Below are positions 49,784-58,579 of a stretch of DNA of 64,000 nucleotides, one piece after another. The notes under the pieces were generated by a model. That model worked only from the letters and a program-made list of their open reading frames with translations, was not told the origin of the DNA and did no database searches. Within the stretch, counting starts at the first letter, position 1. Each line of letters starts with the position of its first letter. Where the stretch lies: contig CAJXKC010000004.1 in the NCBI GenBank assembly GCA_913055685.1, positions 148,988 to 212,987 on the forward strand, written 5' to 3'. This stretch comes from an uncultured Flavobacteriales bacterium (GTDB lineage: Bacteria > Bacteroidota > Bacteroidia > Flavobacteriales > Schleiferiaceae). Position numbers and translations under genes: made by a program.

Positions 49784-50531
49784 GACGCTGCAGTTTTAAG
49801 AGCTTAGTATATTTAAGGTAGGTGGCGTAAGCCGACCAGCGCGCAATCATCCAACCCTCTTTTCCATCGAGAAAGCCTAAACGAAAAAAATAAGCCCGGA
49901 TAAACTTTAGGCTAGGGGAGAAAATGATTTTAAACCAGTTAGAGCGCTTGCCTTTTTCGAAGGCTGCTTGGGAGGAGATGTCGGTGAATTTGCGGATTTG
50001 AGCCAGATGCTCCTCAAAGCTGTAAATGCTGTAATGCAATAAATTTCCTTCCAGCCTTGAGCTCTTTGCCCCGTCTTCCAAAATAAAGGTATCGTGAGGA
50101 TTTTGCCCACCCCAGGCGCCTTTTCGACTATCCCATAGCCGTAGTTTGCGATCGGGATACCACAGTCCATGTTTGATCCATTTCCCGATATAATTTGTTA
50201 GTCGGTTCAGATAATATCCATCGTAAGCCCAGTTTTCTTTAACCGCTAAGATGGAGGCTTTTAAAGTTTCGTCCAGGGCTTCATCGGCATCGAGGGATAA
50301 AACATGCGGGTATTTAGCCTGACTAATAGCCCAGTTTTTTTGCTGGATATGTCCTTCAAAAGTATGTTGTACGAAGCGAGCTCCTTTAGACTTTACAATT
50401 TCTTCGGTCCGATCCGTGCTGTAGGAGTCAACCACCACTATATCATCGGCCACCTCCAATAAAGAGTCTAGGCAACGTCCAATATTGCGTTCTTCGTTAA
50501 AGGTTATTATGACAGCTGAAATCTTAGGCAT
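49773..50531 (-). CDS. Glycosyltransferase, GT2 family (WaaE-like)
   Basis: A 252-residue GT-A fold enzyme. It starts MPKISAVIITFNEERNIGRCLDSLLEVADDIVVVDSYSTDRTEEI, the typical nucleotide-sugar site, followed by LSLDADEALDE (metal-binding DxD). A segment WYPDRKLRLWDSRKGAWGG follows, as in LPS-core beta-1,4-glucosyltransferases of the WaaE/KdtX type. The middle gene of the three-glycosyltransferase run; it overlaps both neighbours by 8-11 nt. Confidence 0.9.
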   Translation of the reverse strand: MPKISAVIITFNEERNIGRCLDSLLEVADDIVVVDSYSTDRTEEIVKSKGARFVQHTFEGHIQQKNWAISQAKYPHVLSLDADEALDETLKASILAVKENWAYDGYYLNRLTNYIGKWIKHGLWYPDRKLRLWDSRKGAWGGQNPHDTFILEDGAKSSRLEGNLLHYSIYSFEEHLAQIRKFTDISSQAAFEKGKRSNWFKIIFSPSLKFIRAYFFRLGFLDGKEGWMIARWSAYATYLKYTKLLKLQRRES

Positions 50532-51627
50532 GAGCCTTCAAGTCTTGATAGGTTTGCATCCACTGTTCGGCAATTACCCTGGGATGAAATTGTTGTACAA
50601 AATTATAATTCTGTTTCACGGCCTTTTCGCGCTGTCCTCCATTCCAAAAATGATCGAGGCCTAATTTCAATGACTCTAAATCAATTGTATCCACTAAATA
50701 ACTTCCTGGCCCGGCTACTTCTTGCAGCGCCGAATTGCGCGCGGTTAGTAAGGCGGTTTTTGAAAACATTGCTTCTAAAAGGGGAATCCCAAAGCCTTCA
50801 AAAATAGAAGGGTAGGCCATAAGCTCGGACATCTGATAAAGGGCCGCTAATTCTGTATTGTCACCTACCTTTAATGGTTTTATCCACTGTTTTTCTTCTT
50901 CGCTCAGCGCATTGTAGAAATTGACCCAATAGCTAGTTGCACGGCCCACCAAGACCAGAGGGATTTTTAATTCGATACAGGCCTGAGCCAATAATACCGG
51001 GTTTTTCCGAGCTTCTAGAGTACCTACGAAGAGCGCATATCGTTCGGGTAACTTATACTTTGCCCGAATTTTGGCGTAACTGCTTTCATAGGACTCAAGA
51101 AATACCTTCTGACAAGACTGGCCAATCACCTTAATCTTTTCTGGGGCAATGCCCAGTAGTTGGATAAGGTCCATACGGGTTTGCTGACTTATCGCTACTA
51201 TTAATTTAGCATCCTTTGCCGCTTGACGAGCCTTACGTTTATAGATCTTGCGGTCAATTGGTTTGTAAAGCTCTGGGTAGCGCAAAAAGATTAAATCGTG
51301 TACCGTTAGTACCGAGGCTATTCCTCGTTTCATTAAGCCACTTGGTAATTCCCCGCTTAGGCCGTGATAAATCGACACCCCGTCTTGCTGGGCTTGTTTA
51401 GACACCAAAGACCGCCGCCAAATCTGACCGTAAAGCTTGTTCTTAAACTTTGGTCCGCACTCTTTTACATGCTCTGCCTTAAAGGGCACCTTTCCGGGCC
51501 AAGGGTTATAAAGCAGGTATTCGTTTTCAGGAAAATATTCGCTTAATGACTCTACCAGGTTACGCCCGTAATTCCCAAGACCACTGCGATTGTGGTAAAT
51601 TCGTTTGGCATCAAAAGCGATTTTCAT
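50524..51627 (-). CDS. Glycosyltransferase, GT4 family
   Basis: A 367-residue GT-B glycosyltransferase. The N-terminal side is KIAFDAKRIYHNRSGLGNYGRNLVESL; the C-terminal donor side is LFVGTLEARKNPVLLAQACIELKIPLVLVG and LMAYPSIFEGFGIPLLEAMFSKTALLTARNSALQEVAG (E-x7-E). The similarity is to mannosyl/glucosyltransferases of surface-polysaccharide assembly. The start shares one base with the stop of the upstream dihydroorotase-like gene (TAATG). Confidence 0.9.
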   Translation of the reverse strand: MKIAFDAKRIYHNRSGLGNYGRNLVESLSEYFPENEYLLYNPWPGKVPFKAEHVKECGPKFKNKLYGQIWRRSLVSKQAQQDGVSIYHGLSGELPSGLMKRGIASVLTVHDLIFLRYPELYKPIDRKIYKRKARQAAKDAKLIVAISQQTRMDLIQLLGIAPEKIKVIGQSCQKVFLESYESSYAKIRAKYKLPERYALFVGTLEARKNPVLLAQACIELKIPLVLVGRATSYWVNFYNALSEEEKQWIKPLKVGDNTELAALYQMSELMAYPSIFEGFGIPLLEAMFSKTALLTARNSALQEVAGPGSYLVDTIDLESLKLGLDHFWNGGQREKAVKQNYNFVQQFHPRVIAEQWMQTYQDLKAHA

Positions 51628-52922
51628 TAATCGAGGCTAATAAGCTGCTGGTTTTGATAGATGGCCAAGGCCTTACCTTTTAGGCTCATCCCTAGGAAGG
51701 GATTATTGGCCCCTTTGCTTTTTAAGTTTGAGGCTTCTAAGGTATAGCTCAGCTCAGGGTCAAATAAACTAAGTTCTACGGTTGCACCTTCTTCTATCTT
51801 TAGATCGGTTTGGTAGTTAAGAACTTCGCGCGGCCCCATACTTATAAGTTCTATTATACGGTCTAAGCCCAATTCATTGCCACAACTTGCATTGAGGGCA
51901 CCGAAAAAGCCCTCCAAGCTAGCCGCGCCAAATGCGGCTAAATCGAATTCACAACGCTTTTCTTCGATGGTTCTGGGCTGGTGATTACTGGCAATCGCTT
52001 TAATACTACCCTTTTTAAGAGCCGCTATTAATGCTTTTCGATCAGCTGCTGATCGCAAAGGGGGATAAACTTTTAAATTACTATCGTAGCTTTCCAAAGC
52101 CTCATCGGTGTAAACCAAATTCAGGAGGTTTACGTCGGCACTAATGTCCAATCCCTTGGCCTGCGCTTTTTCTAGTAATTCTACCGCCTCTTTGCTGCTT
52201 AAAGCTTGTAGGTGAAGGGGGGCAAGACAATAATCGGCTAAGGCAATATCACGGGCTATGCCTAAGCTTTCGGCTAGTTCTGGAATACCCTTTAAACCCA
52301 GCCAGGTACTTTTTTCGCCCTCGTGCATTTGCCCATTAGCGCGAATTTCTCTATCCTGCGATAGCACTTGTAGAGCGGGGCCAATTTCGCGGTTATAAAG
52401 CAAGGCTAAGCGCATAAGGGCGCTGTTAGTAACCGCTTTGGTGCCGTGTGAGAAACCAACTGCACCGGCAGCTTTCATATCGTAAATTTCACTAAGCTCT
52501 TCTCCCTTTAGACCTTTACTAAAAGCACCCATGGGCAGAACTTTTACCGGGAGATGGGGATTGTGCTTGGCTAGATATTGAATAGCCGCTTTATGATCTA
52601 CGGTTGGATTAGTGTCCGGACTTAGGGCAACGCTTGTAAACCCGCCCTGAGCGGCCGCAGCTGCACCCGAGTTGAGATCTTCGCGGTCTTCATTACCAGG
52701 ATCATTGAAGTTTGCTCTTAAATCTAACCATCCGATACTTAGGTGAAGGTTATCAGCGCTAAACTCTTGCGCCTTTGGATCGGATAAATTTGAACCAATT
52801 TTTTCGATTTTCCCCTCCGAAAGTAAAAGGTCAACCACCTTTTGGTGGAAAGAGGAGCGAGGGTCAATCACCTTCGCGTTTTTAATGAGAAATTTTTGCG
52901 CGCTCATGTGGTTCTTTTCCAA
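51627..52922 (-). CDS. Dihydroorotase-like protein lacking metal ligands
   Basis: A 431-residue amidohydrolase-fold protein clearly related to dihydroorotase: LLSEGKIEKIGSNLSDPKAQEFS, then GGFTSVALSPDTNPTVDHKAAI, then SADVNLLNLVYTDEAL, then GSIKAIASNHQPRTIEEKRCEFD. The metal-binding HxH is replaced by DLRANFNDPG, the later His-rich TPHH by NLLNL, and TDHAPH by SNHQPR. It therefore looks catalytically inactive, like the PyrC' partners of aspartate transcarbamoylase. A structural or regulatory role is likely. It overlaps the BatA-type gene by 19 nt upstream. Confidence 0.85.
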   Translation of the reverse strand: MEKNHMSAQKFLIKNAKVIDPRSSFHQKVVDLLLSEGKIEKIGSNLSDPKAQEFSADNLHLSIGWLDLRANFNDPGNEDREDLNSGAAAAAQGGFTSVALSPDTNPTVDHKAAIQYLAKHNPHLPVKVLPMGAFSKGLKGEELSEIYDMKAAGAVGFSHGTKAVTNSALMRLALLYNREIGPALQVLSQDREIRANGQMHEGEKSTWLGLKGIPELAESLGIARDIALADYCLAPLHLQALSSKEAVELLEKAQAKGLDISADVNLLNLVYTDEALESYDSNLKVYPPLRSAADRKALIAALKKGSIKAIASNHQPRTIEEKRCEFDLAAFGAASLEGFFGALNASCGNELGLDRIIELISMGPREVLNYQTDLKIEEGATVELSLFDPELSYTLEASNLKSKGANNPFLGMSLKGKALAIYQNQQLISLD

Positions 52923-54907
52923 AGTAAAATCATTTCCAAGGCAAGGAATAACAAGGCTGCAAAGATAAAGCTTGCTCCTAAGCTTCGGTCTTTGAAGGTT
53001 AAGCCTGCCTTTAATTTATTTAAACGGCTAGTTTCTTCAGGATTAATCAATTCCGCATTTGGACCAAAATACGCTCTTAATTGGTCTTCTTCAAGCTGCT
53101 TTAAATCCGACTCTCGCCTATCGATATTTACGGAAAGGTAGGCAATTTCCTGCCCTGAATTTTTCACCAAGTATTGTCCGGGGTCAAGATTGGCTCCTTC
53201 GCCCATTATTCGGTACATACCCTTTTGGTAATTTTGAGGAGGGATAAGCTCCCCAACATCAGTGATCAGTTTTAAACTTTGATCGGCACTTCCTTGGGCT
53301 TTAATTTCTTGATGGGCATCATCCTGACCTAAAGTGAGGTAATAACTTAAGCCTTGGTCTTTGAAAAGTGCCGCGTTCACCAGAATAGGGGCAAAGCTTT
53401 CGTGGTTTAAGATATTGCTCGAATTCCGATCCAATTTTGAGTTACAATAGAAGATCTGCCCTTTTGCAAAGGCCAGACGAGATAGGAGCTTTCGATTGCC
53501 ACTTAAACTAATTAGTGACTGACTTTGGCTCGTAAAGTCATTAAGATAGGCCGTAGTATAGGGTAGGTCGGGGTTATCTAATTCCTCGATAAAAACATCT
53601 TTGTAAAAGGGGTCGGCATAATTTATCTCTTGGGCGCGACTACTATCGTTTTGCCATTTTTCGGAAAGCCTAATCTGGAAGCGCGCCAGATTTTGTTTAA
53701 AAGCAGAAGCAGATTGTCCTGGTAAAAAACAAAGGTTTCCACCTCTTTTTAAGTGGTTCTGCAAGTTGACTTGCAATTTTTCTAAGTCTTGATCGGTGGT
53801 AATTACGATAAGATCTGCAGCTTCAAATTTAGCGTAGTCAAGCTGATTAAGCGGAGACCGGAAATATTCAAAAAACTTGCTGTCAAATAAGTCAGATAAA
53901 GGCTCAATATGCTGCTCTCCTAGGAGGTACACCAGAGGTGGCTTTTGGTTTTGCCAGCTAAAGAAAAACTGATTGTCGAATTCGGGTTCACCTTTGTCAA
54001 TCTTTAATTGGGCCCGATGAAACTTCCCAGGTGGGACTACAAAAGGTAAACTTAGCTTCGGAGTTTGATCTTCATTCAAGTCTACTAATTGCGCGGAATA
54101 AAGGCTATCATCCAATTTCAGCTCTAAGCTTAAGTTACTTATTTGTTCACCATGACTTTTTAGCCAGAGCTGGATTTTCTGCTCCATTCCCGCCACGAAA
54201 ATGGGCTTTTCAAAACTCAATGAATCGATTGCGATGTTTTTGCTTCCTTCCACACTGCTTAAAGGAAGTAATACTAGTTCTTCCTCGAATTGGGTAGCGC
54301 CTAGTTGCTCGTTAAATAAACTATTTTGAAAGTCGCTGATAAGATAGACCTTATGCAAAGCTCCTTCGGTATAATTGGCTCGTAGCGATTCTAGCATTTG
54401 CTTGATTCCCAAAAAGCGGCTGTGAAAATTGAGCCGGTCTACAAGCTCTACTGCCGTCTGAGGCTTTGTGTTGGAGGCAAATAAGGAACTACTATTGTTA
54501 CTGATTAATTGCACATCAGCGTCCTCGCTAAAGCTTTGTATTAAATCGACCGCTAAATTTTTCGCTTGGTAAAATAAGGGGCCTTCCGCTCCATTACGCT
54601 TCATGGAGAAGCTGTTATCCAAATAAATGTGGTGGTAGACCTTTTTAGTTTGCGAATCGCCGCCAACTTCGTCTACTTCCGGCTGAGCAAATGCAAACAC
54701 TAGCATGCTTAGCGCTAAGGCCCTTAGGGCAAAGATTAACCAGTAGCGTAGCTTCTTTACCGCTTTACTTTCTTGTTCGAGCCTTCTTAAAAATCGGGTA
54801 TTGCTAAAAAAAACGGTTTTGGCCTTCCTGAAATTGAAGAGGTGAATGAGTAGGGGAATACTCAGTGCGGTTAGGGCCCATAGAAATTGAGGAAAACCGA
54901 AATTCAT
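52904..54907 (-). CDS. BatA-type (N-terminal double-TM domain) membrane protein
   Basis: A 667-residue protein. The N-terminal BatA domain shows two TM segments: FGFPQFLWALTALSIPLLIHLFNFRKAKTVFFSNTRFL and LRYWLIFALRALALSMLVFAFAQPE. A vWA-like region follows with HHIYLDNSFSMKRNGAEG (a DxSxS-like MIDAS) and a long beta-rich extracytoplasmic part. A last TM segment (FIFAALLFLALEMILLW) ends it. Such proteins are conserved in Bacteroidota; the family was first linked to aerotolerance, but the role of this form is not known. Confidence 0.85.
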   Translation of the reverse strand: MNFGFPQFLWALTALSIPLLIHLFNFRKAKTVFFSNTRFLRRLEQESKAVKKLRYWLIFALRALALSMLVFAFAQPEVDEVGGDSQTKKVYHHIYLDNSFSMKRNGAEGPLFYQAKNLAVDLIQSFSEDADVQLISNNSSSLFASNTKPQTAVELVDRLNFHSRFLGIKQMLESLRANYTEGALHKVYLISDFQNSLFNEQLGATQFEEELVLLPLSSVEGSKNIAIDSLSFEKPIFVAGMEQKIQLWLKSHGEQISNLSLELKLDDSLYSAQLVDLNEDQTPKLSLPFVVPPGKFHRAQLKIDKGEPEFDNQFFFSWQNQKPPLVYLLGEQHIEPLSDLFDSKFFEYFRSPLNQLDYAKFEAADLIVITTDQDLEKLQVNLQNHLKRGGNLCFLPGQSASAFKQNLARFQIRLSEKWQNDSSRAQEINYADPFYKDVFIEELDNPDLPYTTAYLNDFTSQSQSLISLSGNRKLLSRLAFAKGQIFYCNSKLDRNSSNILNHESFAPILVNAALFKDQGLSYYLTLGQDDAHQEIKAQGSADQSLKLITDVGELIPPQNYQKGMYRIMGEGANLDPGQYLVKNSGQEIAYLSVNIDRRESDLKQLEEDQLRAYFGPNAELINPEETSRLNKLKAGLTFKDRSLGASFIFAALLFLALEMILLWKRTT

Positions 54908-54954: not shown

Positions 54955-55938
54955 TTATTTGTGAAGAATTTCCTCCAAGAATTTTTCAATCGCCGCTCTA
55001 ACGGCCTCCGGGTCCTGACTCTTAATAGGGTTTGCCAGCACGTGGTCCCCTACATCTGCCAACTCGACCAATCGTTTTTTATGCTTCGGACTACCTAGGC
55101 TTTCGTGCATCCATCGAATTTTATCGACCGAAACTACCGGGTCTTGTTCCTCCTCATTTTTATAGAAACAAAGATTTAGGGTGGGACATTTAACTTTAGC
55201 GAAAGTGCTATCCACCAAGGTGGATTCTAACAAGTGCTGCAGTTCTACTAAGGCATTAACCGTGTAAAGTGTATCCCAATAGAGCGCATAGGCAGCAGTG
55301 TCGGCTACAATTCTGCGCTTATCCCCCAAAACTAGGTGAGCAATTTCTAAGCCCCAAGGGCCATTTAATAATGCTGCAGCAGGATCTTTTACTCGAATGT
55401 TTGGTGATAAGTTAACCAGGGCATTCACCGACTTTGGAAAACTAGCGGCTAAATTAATGGCATAGCTGCAACCAGTAGAAGTACCCATTAGTAGTACTTT
55501 CTTACCTAATTTTTGTCCAATTGCTAGTGCTTCTTTGGCGTCGGCCCAGGCACTTTCAGCGGTAAAATCATGTAGGCTTTCACGGCGATAGCCATGACCA
55601 CTCAAGCGACTTAAAAACAAATTCGCGCCTAATTTATTCGCGATTTCACGATGCACGGGCGCGCCTTCTGGATGAGAAGCAGAAAAGCCATGCAGGTACA
55701 CAATGGCCCATTCGGTTTGATGCAGGCTATCACCAAACCATTCTATTCTAGCCTCATTTTCGCTGCGAAGATCAAATTTAGATTCCTTATTAAGCAGAAA
55801 TGAATCTAGCTCAGCCAGATTACTGGGAATAGCGGGTAGGTCTGACTTTAAATTTAATGGTTCTGGCTTTGGCCCGGCCAAATAGCCCATAGCTAAAAGG
55901 CTAAAAAAAAAGAGTAAGAGGTAAACTATTTTTTTCAT
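54955..55938 (-). CDS. Alpha/beta hydrolase
   Basis: A 327-residue serine hydrolase with an N-terminal signal or anchor (MKKIVYLLLFFFSLLAMGYLAG). The nucleophile elbow is MGTSTGCSY (Ser in GxSxG), the acid is probably Asp in NEEEQDPVVSVD, and the His is in VGDHVLANP. The oxyanion region is VYLHGFSASH. It acts in the envelope as an esterase or lipase of unknown specificity. The start overlaps the upstream DUF3299-like gene by 4 nt (ATGA), so it belongs to the ABC/DUF3299 operon. Confidence 0.85.
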   Translation of the reverse strand: MKKIVYLLLFFFSLLAMGYLAGPKPEPLNLKSDLPAIPSNLAELDSFLLNKESKFDLRSENEARIEWFGDSLHQTEWAIVYLHGFSASHPEGAPVHREIANKLGANLFLSRLSGHGYRRESLHDFTAESAWADAKEALAIGQKLGKKVLLMGTSTGCSYAINLAASFPKSVNALVNLSPNIRVKDPAAALLNGPWGLEIAHLVLGDKRRIVADTAAYALYWDTLYTVNALVELQHLLESTLVDSTFAKVKCPTLNLCFYKNEEEQDPVVSVDKIRWMHESLGSPKHKKRLVELADVGDHVLANPIKSQDPEAVRAAIEKFLEEILHK

Positions 55939-56378
55939 CGGTCTACGGCTTCACAAGCTTCTAAAATGTAATTAAACTGCTCGAAATCATCACTGTTTAG
56001 TCGAAGCCTGCCTTTAATGAAAACCACTTCATCCGTTTCGAAGCGCCGGGGTGATTCTTTGAATTTTAGGGCAATAACACTTTCGGGACCCGCACCACCG
56101 CAAAAGAAGCAAGCGCTAAAGGGGTAGGCCGATAAAGCGTACTCGCCGCCATCCACATCCAATGGAATCATATATCCTTTGATAAGAACTTCTTGGTCCT
56201 TGAGGGCTTTTACTTCCATGGAAAATTCAGGCACTAAATACCAGGCCTCAAAATCCTCGAAATAGCGGTCTACAAATTCCACTTTAGACAGTAGTTTCCA
56301 GTCAATGATACGAGCGGCCTGCTGTGCGATTAAGTCTTGACTAAGGATAAAGAATATGATTATTGTAAGCTTTTTCAT
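55935..56378 (-). CDS. DUF3299-like exported protein, copy 2
   Basis: A 147-residue exported protein with signal peptide MKKLTIIIFFILSQDLIAQ. The core is VLIKGYMIPLDVDGGEYALSAYPFSACFFCGGAGPESVIALKF, where the FSxCFFCGxAGPE block is shared with the next gene upstream. The two Cys of CFFC plus nearby acidic residues could bind metal. It follows the first copy with a 4-nt overlap and is followed in the same way by the hydrolase gene. The role is probably envelope metal handling together with the ABC genes (inference). Confidence 0.75.
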   Translation of the reverse strand: MKKLTIIIFFILSQDLIAQQAARIIDWKLLSKVEFVDRYFEDFEAWYLVPEFSMEVKALKDQEVLIKGYMIPLDVDGGEYALSAYPFSACFFCGGAGPESVIALKFKESPRRFETDEVVFIKGRLRLNSDDFEQFNYILEACEAVDR

Positions 56379-56797
56379 CCGGCTATACTTGCTTGGGTGA
56401 GCGTGAAAAATAGTCCGCTTCCATTGCGGTTTAAGCGCAGCACTCCTTTAATGGGAAGGTACTTATCAGTTGCAAAACGCCCTGGGTCCTTCGCGAATTT
56501 TAATTGAATTGCCGTTTCTGGTCCCGCATTTCCACAGAAGAAGCAACTGCTAAAAGGGTTTTTGGAAAGCGCGTAAGTATTGGCTTCAACATCAATAGGA
56601 ATAAGGTAGCCCGCTATGATTACTTCTTCTCCCTCAAACTGAGATTCAAGGATAGAAGGGAATTTCGGAAAAAACTGACCGCTATTGGGGTCTTGGTCAT
56701 AGGTGGTCATGCCTAATACCGGCCAGGCCAAACTTTTTTGGGCCCATCCATCCGCCGAAAGGCTAATGAGAAATATGAAGGTTAGGAGCCTAAGCAT
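56375..56797 (-). CDS. DUF3299-like exported protein, copy 1
   Basis: A 140-residue exported protein with signal peptide MLRLLTFIFLISLSADGWAQ. The block EVIIAGYLIPIDVEANTYALSKNPFSSCFFCGNAGPETAIQLKF is closely similar to copy 2, so the pair arose by tandem duplication. The ORF track starts 23 codons earlier, inside the permease gene; the signal peptide fixes ATG 56797, which overlaps the permease stop by 8 nt. As I recall, DUF3299 proteins occur with similar ABC genes in zinc-responsive loci of proteobacteria. Confidence 0.75.
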   Translation of the reverse strand: MLRLLTFIFLISLSADGWAQKSLAWPVLGMTTYDQDPNSGQFFPKFPSILESQFEGEEVIIAGYLIPIDVEANTYALSKNPFSSCFFCGNAGPETAIQLKFAKDPGRFATDKYLPIKGVLRLNRNGSGLFFTLTQASIAG

Positions 56798-57953
56798 CTT
56801 GAAGAGATTTAATGATATTAATGCGATAAGCATGCCAAGCGGGAAGCAGGGAGGCGACTCCCACAATTAGACAGAGACTTAGGAAGGTATATAAGGTTTT
56901 AAGGTCGACAATGATGCTGTGCCAAGGAATTTTGTAAGCGGGACTCAGATACTGACCAATTAAGGCGAAACTTATTAGGTTGAAAAGCACCGCCGCGATA
57001 AAGGCGAAAAAAGCAAGAATAAGGCCTTTGCTAAGAAGTAGGGTAATAATCTTTTTTCGCGGACTGCCTATCGCCCTTAAAAAAGCGAGCTGGGGCTCAT
57101 CATCCTTTAGGCCTTGAAATAAAGCTAAGAAGACACTGAGGGTCGCGATCAGGATCATTATATAGGCTAAAATATTGAGGAAAAGGATAGCATTGGCTCC
57201 TAGACTAAAAAGTCGATTAACCTCAATGGCGGGCAGGGCCGCTTGCATGCTAGTATTTTTATTCACTAATCGCGGTAAGCGTAAGTTGGCCATTGGGCTT
57301 TTAAAGCGAAAGAGGCCTGCGGTAATTTCTTTAGGTCCTTCGCTATGGTGGACTTCCCAAAGAGTGCTTAGCGGACTTAGAATTAGCTCATCGATAACCG
57401 TGCCGCTGGCCTGATAAATACCTACAACTTTAAAAGGATGATGGTGATGATCGCCCTTGGCTTGAAGGCCATGGGACCCTTCAAACTGATCTCCAATCTG
57501 AAGGCCAGTTGCTTCGGCTACTGCAGCACCTAGACATACTTCCATGCTTTTTGAGGCTAATTTGCCACTGGCTAGTTTAACTCCGTACCATTCTGCATAG
57601 CGCTGACTAGTACCAACAATTCTCCAGGATTGATAATTGTCGCCATAGGATAGTGGCACGGACTCTTTTACTAAAGGGTTTTTACTTAGTTTCTCGAATT
57701 CCTCTAATGGGATATTTCCAGTGGGAGGGTCGATATGATAAACGGAGGCTAATATTATTTGCAGAGGGCTGCCTTTGGCACCCACTACCATGTCTATGTT
57801 TTTAATATTGTCCTTAAAGCTGGCCTCAAAGCGCTCTTGAGCGTGGAGTAATAAAAGCACTAAACCAGTGCTAAAGGATAGAAGCAATACGCTTAAAATG
57901 CTATGCAGGCTTCGGTGTTTAAGGCTTTGCCAAGCAGTTTTCCACACTCTCAT
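56790..57953 (-). CDS. MacB/LolC-like ABC permease with His-rich segment
   Basis: A 387-residue permease of the FtsX/MacB type: one N-terminal TM segment, a large periplasmic domain (about 40-260), then three TM segments (about 262-375). The periplasmic domain opens FKDNIKNIDMVVGAKGSPLQIILASVYHIDPPTGNIP and carries a His run, LQAKGDHHHHPFKVVGIYQASGTVIDELI. The His run suggests metal binding. It pairs with the ATPase encoded 4 nt upstream and with the two DUF3299-like proteins downstream. Such machines move substrates between inner membrane and periplasm rather than across both membranes. Confidence 0.83.
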   Translation of the reverse strand: MRVWKTAWQSLKHRSLHSILSVLLLSFSTGLVLLLLHAQERFEASFKDNIKNIDMVVGAKGSPLQIILASVYHIDPPTGNIPLEEFEKLSKNPLVKESVPLSYGDNYQSWRIVGTSQRYAEWYGVKLASGKLASKSMEVCLGAAVAEATGLQIGDQFEGSHGLQAKGDHHHHPFKVVGIYQASGTVIDELILSPLSTLWEVHHSEGPKEITAGLFRFKSPMANLRLPRLVNKNTSMQAALPAIEVNRLFSLGANAILFLNILAYIMILIATLSVFLALFQGLKDDEPQLAFLRAIGSPRKKIITLLLSKGLILAFFAFIAAVLFNLISFALIGQYLSPAYKIPWHSIIVDLKTLYTFLSLCLIVGVASLLPAWHAYRINIIKSLQDA

Positions 57954-58579
57954 AAGTTATAGCTTTTTGAGATTTTGGATTTTAGGCGCGCATCATGGGT
58001 AACGATAAGCAGCGCACTTTGATGCTTTTCGCAAAGCTCGATGAGCAGGGAGGCCACTAGGTCGGCATTTTTATCGTCTAAGGCTGAGCTCGGCTCATCG
58101 GCTAAAAGAATAGGTGGTTCATGCATTAAGGCTCTGGCTATGGAGGCCCTTTGCTGTTCACCGATACTGCAAACTGCTGGTTTTTTATGACGTAAATTAT
58201 AGATGCCCAGATCTTTAAATAATTGATGGATTTTTTGAAGATTGGGTTTGTGGCCTTGATAGCGGGCGGCTAGCAATAAGTTATCTTCTAAGCTGAGGTA
58301 GGGTAGGAAATAGCTTTTTTGAAAAACTAAGCCATAGTGTTTGGCCCTAAACTTTTCCAGCTGCCTAGGGTTTAATTCTTTAAGCGACTGACCCAAAACT
58401 TCTATGCTTCCTTGCTGCAGCTCTTGAAGTCCTGCAAGTAAATTTAATAATGTAGACTTTCCACTGCCTGATGGGCCTAGCAGTAACGCCGTTTCTCCTC
58501 TATGGAGATTCACATCAGGAAATTCGAGGGCCTCTTGGGAGGGATAACTGAATTTAAGTTCAGAGCTTTGTAAGACCAT
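57950..58579 (-). CDS. ABC transporter ATP-binding protein, MacB/LolD type
   Basis: A 209-residue ATPase with Walker A LLGPSGSGKSTLLN, signature CSIGEQQRASIARALM, Walker B ILLADEPSSALDDKN and the H-loop VTHDARL. The short length and signature belong to the MacB/LolD group that drives FtsX-like permeases. It is the first gene of the operon: ATPase, permease, DUF3299-like 1, DUF3299-like 2, hydrolase. It is divergent from the CoA-binding gene with a 26-bp spacer, so the two may share a promoter region. Confidence 0.92.
   Translation of the reverse strand: MVLQSSELKFSYPSQEALEFPDVNLHRGETALLLGPSGSGKSTLLNLLAGLQELQQGSIEVLGQSLKELNPRQLEKFRAKHYGLVFQKSYFLPYLSLEDNLLLAARYQGHKPNLQKIHQLFKDLGIYNLRHKKPAVCSIGEQQRASIARALMHEPPILLADEPSSALDDKNADLVASLLIELCEKHQSALLIVTHDARLKSKISKSYNL

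Follow-up and report, generated by a model that had tools for sequence, protein, structure and literature searches.

A dihydroorotase-like protein of Bacteroidia that lacks the metal-centre residues and follows the type of aspartate transcarbamoylase PyrB

A gene from an uncultured Flavobacteriales bacterium was found to encode a dihydroorotase (DHO) homologue in which all of the metal-centre residues are replaced, and whose relatives occur throughout the class Bacteroidia in company with one type of PyrB. The product is very probably a pseudo-DHO of the PyrC'/PyrX kind, which would assemble PyrB into a class A2-like aspartate transcarbamoylase (ATCase), and which would derive, within the Bacteroidota, from an active PyrB-bound DHO whose gene has since been unlinked from pyrB. 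The window, i.e. the whole stretch of DNA that was analysed, comprises 64,000 nucleotides of contig CAJXKC010000004.1 and belongs to a genome of 2.96 Mb in 8 contigs (99.9% complete).

Results

The gene and its product

The likelier start of the pseudo-DHO gene is the ATG at codon 6 (52907-52905), which gives a protein of 426 aa and forms the sequence ATGA with the stop codon of the BatA/VWA gene upstream. The product matched dihydroorotases over its full length. Its score against TIGR00857 was 282.9 bits, passing the cut-off of 279.05 by about 4 bits, and annotation pipelines would therefore call it a dihydroorotase. The closest solved structure by sequence was that of the Aquifex aeolicus DHO (E about 1e-67). 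The AlphaFold2 model had a pLDDT of 88.6 and a pTM of 0.91, and its best PDB match in Foldseek was 3d6n_A (TM 0.91), the Aquifex DHO from the DHO-ATC complex. The protein is thus a full-length homologue of type I dihydroorotase and, as far as the predicted model tells, has the same fold.

Table 1. Features of the window around the pseudo-DHO gene; residue changes are given as Aquifex DHO to window protein.
Feature	Position	Strand	Remarks
Pseudo-dihydroorotase CDS	51627..52922	(-)	431 aa from TTG
WLDLRANFNDPG, HxH metal motif and Arg65 position	52695..52730	(-)	H61 to R69, H63 to N71, R65 to N73
VGFSHGTKA, Asp153 ligand position	52434..52460	(-)	D153 to G160; ligand identity from PMC3880350
LQVLSQDRE, His180 position	52347..52373	(-)	H180 to L187
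PLHLQALSS, His232 position	52194..52220	(-)	H232 to A240
IASNHQPRT, TDHAPH position	51969..51995	(-)	D305 to N313, H309 to R317; H314 kept
BatA N-terminal domain (PF07584)/VWA-like membrane protein gene	52904..54907	(-)	directly upstream, ATGA overlap; conserved neighbour
Glycosyltransferase	50524..51627	(-)	downstream of pseudo-DHO, 1-base overlap; neighbour only

The metal site

The metal centre of the Aquifex DHO is formed by H61, H63, D153, H180, H232 and D305 (PMC3880350), and these residues were placed on the window protein by alignment. None of the six is kept (Table 1). Two further active-site positions, those of R65 and H309, are altered as well. An earlier sequence-only reading had described a dihydroorotase-like protein with replaced metal ligands and altered HxH and TDHAPH motifs, and the alignment bears this out. 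That reading had also named NLLNL (aa 265-269) as a later His motif; this segment aligns with Aquifex NPNHLL, which holds no metal ligand, and the true later ligands, H180 (at LQVLSQDR) and H232 (at HLQALS), are indeed lost.

The replacement extends to the relatives of the protein in the class, of which 81 named ones were compared. At most two of the six ligands are kept in 80 of them, and one or none, mostly D305, in 76. H61 and H63 occur together in a single relative and H232 in none, D305 is found in 58/81, and the histidine H314 of the window protein (Aquifex H306) is kept in all 81. The pocket positions are occupied by many different residues, with no single new conserved set. All 81 relatives have an intact reading frame, and this conservation across the class rules out a sequencing error, a local oddity or the decay of one gene. 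The name given by TIGR00857, an active dihydroorotase, was rejected, as the metal-centre residues are absent despite the score above the cut-off. Judging from these residues, the pseudo-DHO probably has no dihydroorotase activity.

Dihydroorotase and PyrB in the same genome

The genome holds one other DHO (C1:912907-914187, 447 aa), in which all ligands are intact. It displays the segments DQVHFREPG, HSEDE, HVFHIS and TDHAPH, and scored 711.8 bits with NCBIfam PRK09236, an equivalog dihydroorotase model with a cut-off of 535. The search for a second, intact pyrC that had been proposed from the window alone was thus successful, and the idea that the pseudo-DHO is the sole dihydroorotase of the genome is ruled out.

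There is a single pyrB, located beside pyrR on a contig other than that of the pseudo-DHO, and a search of the genome for PyrI gave none. The PyrB is class A-like. Its motifs GPxTLIP and ERQ..YFPSxREY are common to the Aquifex ATC and to the PyrB of sister classes, occur in similar form in an alphaproteobacterial PyrB that adjoins a pDHO, and are missing from class B and class C PyrB. Judging from these motifs and the tree, it is a PyrB of the putatively DHO-associating type, working with no PyrI.

Genomic neighbourhood

A BatA/VWA gene lies directly upstream of the pseudo-DHO gene, on the same strand and often overlapping it, in 64 of the 74 named loci for which upstream sequence was available. 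This synteny is old. In some loci the pair is followed by DUF4199 and a family 2 glycosyltransferase, according to the annotation of Rufibacter (L227). No pyrB was found within about 4 kb of the pseudo-DHO in any of the 81 Bacteroidia loci; the one exception met in the search for such linkage was a genome (G278, L056) in which the two genes are about 3 kb apart, with other genes between. The position of the gene between a BatA-type gene and glycosyltransferases, away from pyrB, is as it had been read from the window. Elsewhere in the window, neighbouring genes at 55935-56866 encode a pair of short paralogues with a PFS(A/S)CFFCG.AGPE(S/T) motif, beside two ABC-transporter-like genes (56790-58579).

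Distribution in the class and type of PyrB

Ligand-less homologues were found throughout Bacteroidia, including Flavobacteriales, Chitinophagaceae, Saprospiraceae, Mucilaginibacter, Solitalea and others, with roughly 36-43% identity to the window protein (best 46%). Similarity to the PyrB of the window's genome splits the class sharply, with 59-81% in most genomes and 35-50% in the rest; a PyrB with E>1e-65 to this PyrB was considered foreign. Among 396 class genomes, counted by hand from tables and not independent of each other, about 353 have the native PyrB, and 348 of these carry the pseudo-DHO (347 at E<1e-50, plus a divergent copy in G218); none of the 25 with foreign PyrB does. In a set of 148 class genomes, PyrI was detected in seven and the pseudo-DHO in none of those seven.

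PyrB is foreign or missing in about four or five separate lineages, and most of the foreign-PyrB genomes may reflect one ancestral PyrB replacement. Absences of the pseudo-DHO that go with a replaced or missing PyrB were found in Bacteroidales-like families, in families f2 and f10 and in genome G270, and the replacing PyrB types differ. Seven foreign PyrBs are accompanied by PyrI and are of class B. The PyrB of G012 groups with the class C PyrB of B. subtilis and S. aureus (100/99 in the tree). In G072, which lacks the pseudo-DHO, a different PyrB is immediately followed by an intact DHO (L055, C23:491500-500000). G270 carries a class B-like PyrB (L051, C75) and no pseudo-DHO, and its congeners keep the native pair. 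The pseudo-DHO is therefore absent where PyrB is of a type that needs no partner or comes with one of its own and, as judged from these genome sequences, the distribution ties it to the PyrB type.

Some related genomes deserve mention. In G166 and G452, which share the genus code of G072, no PyrB was matched at E<1e-15. G313, of the genus of G270, has a class B-like PyrB (L040, C52) besides the native PyrB and the pseudo-DHO, possibly by contamination; PyrI was found neither in G313 nor in G270. G227 and G257, nearly complete genomes from a single genus, lack both PyrB and any recognisable dihydroorotase, and are likely pyrimidine auxotrophs.

There were exceptions to the co-occurrence. The pseudo-DHO was not found in five drafts with native PyrB (G375, G380, G423, G429 and G382), nor in G245 (95% complete, 300 contigs), which has a class A-like PyrB. 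Conversely, pyrB was not detected in the fragmented drafts G310 and G533, where the pseudo-DHO is present, nor in G212, with a divergent pseudo-DHO. The divergent-PyrB lineages f61, f73 and G435 had been candidate counter-examples by absence; this was overturned by the finding of very divergent copies, likewise ligand-less.

Origin

Homologues from sister classes of the Bacteroidota have intact ligands, and pyrB immediately precedes them in 4 of 10 loci. The pseudo-DHOs of Bacteroidia group together (100/100) and fall among these intact homologues (93/93, 99/97), and the alphaproteobacterial pDHOs form a separate clade (100/99). An earlier tree separated the groups likewise and left the nesting unresolved. 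A common clade of both kinds of pseudo-DHO was not the best tree, though an AU p of 0.14 does not reject it. A separate origin of the Bacteroidia pseudo-DHO is probable. Alphaproteobacterial pDHOs that adjoin pyrB (L226, L230) show SDHNPQD or SSHDPQD, motifs that closely resemble SDHNPxD, which occurs in many pseudo-DHOs of Bacteroidia; this likeness reflects either shared descent or convergence.

Discussion

Proposed role and alternatives

The co-occurrence with one PyrB type, the precedents of known pDHOs and the shared PyrB motifs together lead us to infer that the pseudo-DHO assembles the PyrB of Bacteroidia; physical binding, its stoichiometry and the need of PyrB for its partner are part of this inference. 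Dimers of the pseudo-DHO would connect PyrB trimers to form a dodecamer, in the manner of the Aquifex DHO and of the pDHO of Pseudomonas aeruginosa, and this bridging would stabilise or activate PyrB. The N-carbamoyl-aspartate formed by PyrB would then be cyclised by the separate intact DHO. The ancestor would have been the active PyrB-associated DHO of Bacteroidota; once the other DHO had taken over catalysis, selection may have kept the scaffold and not the metal site. The suggestion, made from the window, of a pseudoenzyme comparable to the PyrC' subunits that scaffold ATCase gains support from the intact second DHO and from the distribution by PyrB type, the complex and the inactivity being presumed. 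The separation of the gene from pyrB, its company with BatA/VWA, the exceptions to the co-occurrence and the small number of independent PyrB replacements weigh against it, and the main caveat is the reported activity of a PyrC paralogue poor in zinc ligands, taken up below.

It could be argued that the neighbours point elsewhere. A BatA/VWA gene upstream in 64/74 loci, and overlapping genes in the window, would suit a protein recruited, together with BatA/VWA and the glycosyltransferases, to a function in the envelope or in glycosylation, the link to PyrB type being a phylogenetic coincidence. However, in several separate lineages the protein is absent where PyrB is missing or has been replaced, with varied replacing types, and the ancestral linkage, as preserved in sister classes, is with pyrB; this reading is quite improbable. 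The possibility that the protein is still catalytic, either as a dihydroorotase or as another amidohydrolase, in a metal-independent or differently ligated manner, appears very improbable. According to work cited in PMC2770081, a Pseudomonas PyrC paralogue without zinc-binding residues (PyrC2) had DHO activity, and the retention of D305 in 58/81 relatives and of H306 in 81/81 could be taken in the same sense. Against it stand the loss in the window protein of all six metal-centre residues and of the Arg65 and His309 positions, the varied residues that fill the pocket in the relatives with no new conserved set, and the intact DHO in the same genome; moreover, catalysis leaves the dependence on PyrB type unexplained. 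That the gene is the decaying remnant of a former DHO, no longer held by selection, is hardly credible: the lost ligands, and an identity of about 40% between families vs 70-80% for PyrB, would fit, but full-length frames in about 350 genomes across the class and invariant non-ligand positions refute it by conservation.

Within the preferred reading of a PyrB-assembling pseudo-DHO, a broader proposal is somewhat favoured on balance: that nearly all Bacteroidia outside the PyrI lineages carry out the committed step of pyrimidine synthesis with a class A2-like ATCase. Its pseudo-DHO would have evolved within Bacteroidota from an active DHO bound to PyrB, separately from that of the proteobacteria, and its gene would then have left the pyr locus for a position behind BatA/VWA.

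If the assembling role is true, the "dihydroorotase" of hundreds of Bacteroidia would be an ATCase subunit, and metabolic models would have to be corrected; it would also explain why two "dihydroorotases" are kept in these genomes. The protein would be a further example of an enzyme that became a scaffold, one with intact relatives still linked to pyrB in sister classes, and the Bacteroidia ATCase would be a defined two-protein system for reconstitution. Lineages in which the pseudo-DHO is lost and PyrB has given way to a type that is self-sufficient or has a different partner amount to a natural experiment on partner dependence.

Comparison with known systems

The kind of protein is known from Pseudomonas and Sinorhizobium; for the class-wide, unlinked version no description was found. 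The literature searches gave no Bacteroidetes pseudo-DHO, and an earlier mention is possible. Adjacency to pyrB is usual in proteobacteria, without being a strict criterion, and the window gene lacks it.

The class A2 ATCase of Pseudomonas consists of PyrB and the pseudo-dihydroorotase PyrC', as PMC7053772 relates, citing Schurr et al. 1995. The ATCase chains of P. aeruginosa are inactive monomers until the pDHO assembles the dodecamer, and the pDHO is needed for activity (PMC7053772). Likened by description, the window system shares with it a DHO fold without zinc ligands, a class A-like PyrB, an active DHO elsewhere and the lack of PyrI. It differs in that the gene is unlinked from pyrB, lies beside BatA/VWA and is nearly class-wide.

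In S. meliloti, smc01361 ("PyrX") adjoins pyrB, and its disruption leads to pyrimidine auxotrophy (PMC5929573). PyrX and the alphaproteobacterial pDHOs resemble the window protein in the loss of ligands, in a similar S-H-P-D..K motif at the TDHAPH position and in the class A-type PyrB. S. meliloti likewise has a second PyrC, an essential one, besides the pseudo-DHO. Unlike the window gene, the alphaproteobacterial pDHO genes overlap or directly follow pyrB, and their products belong to a separate clade (100/99 vs 100/100).

A DHO domain without zinc ligands is also found in the fungal CAD-like protein (PMC7053772, by description), attached to ATC; unlike the window protein, it is covalently fused and eukaryotic. 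The class A1 ATCase-DHO of Aquifex (3d6n, 4bjh) is the nearest solved structure by sequence and fold, and its PyrB shares GPxTLIP and ERQ..Y.PS. The Aquifex DHO is, in contrast, an active zinc enzyme, whose metal-centre residues are all missing from the window protein.
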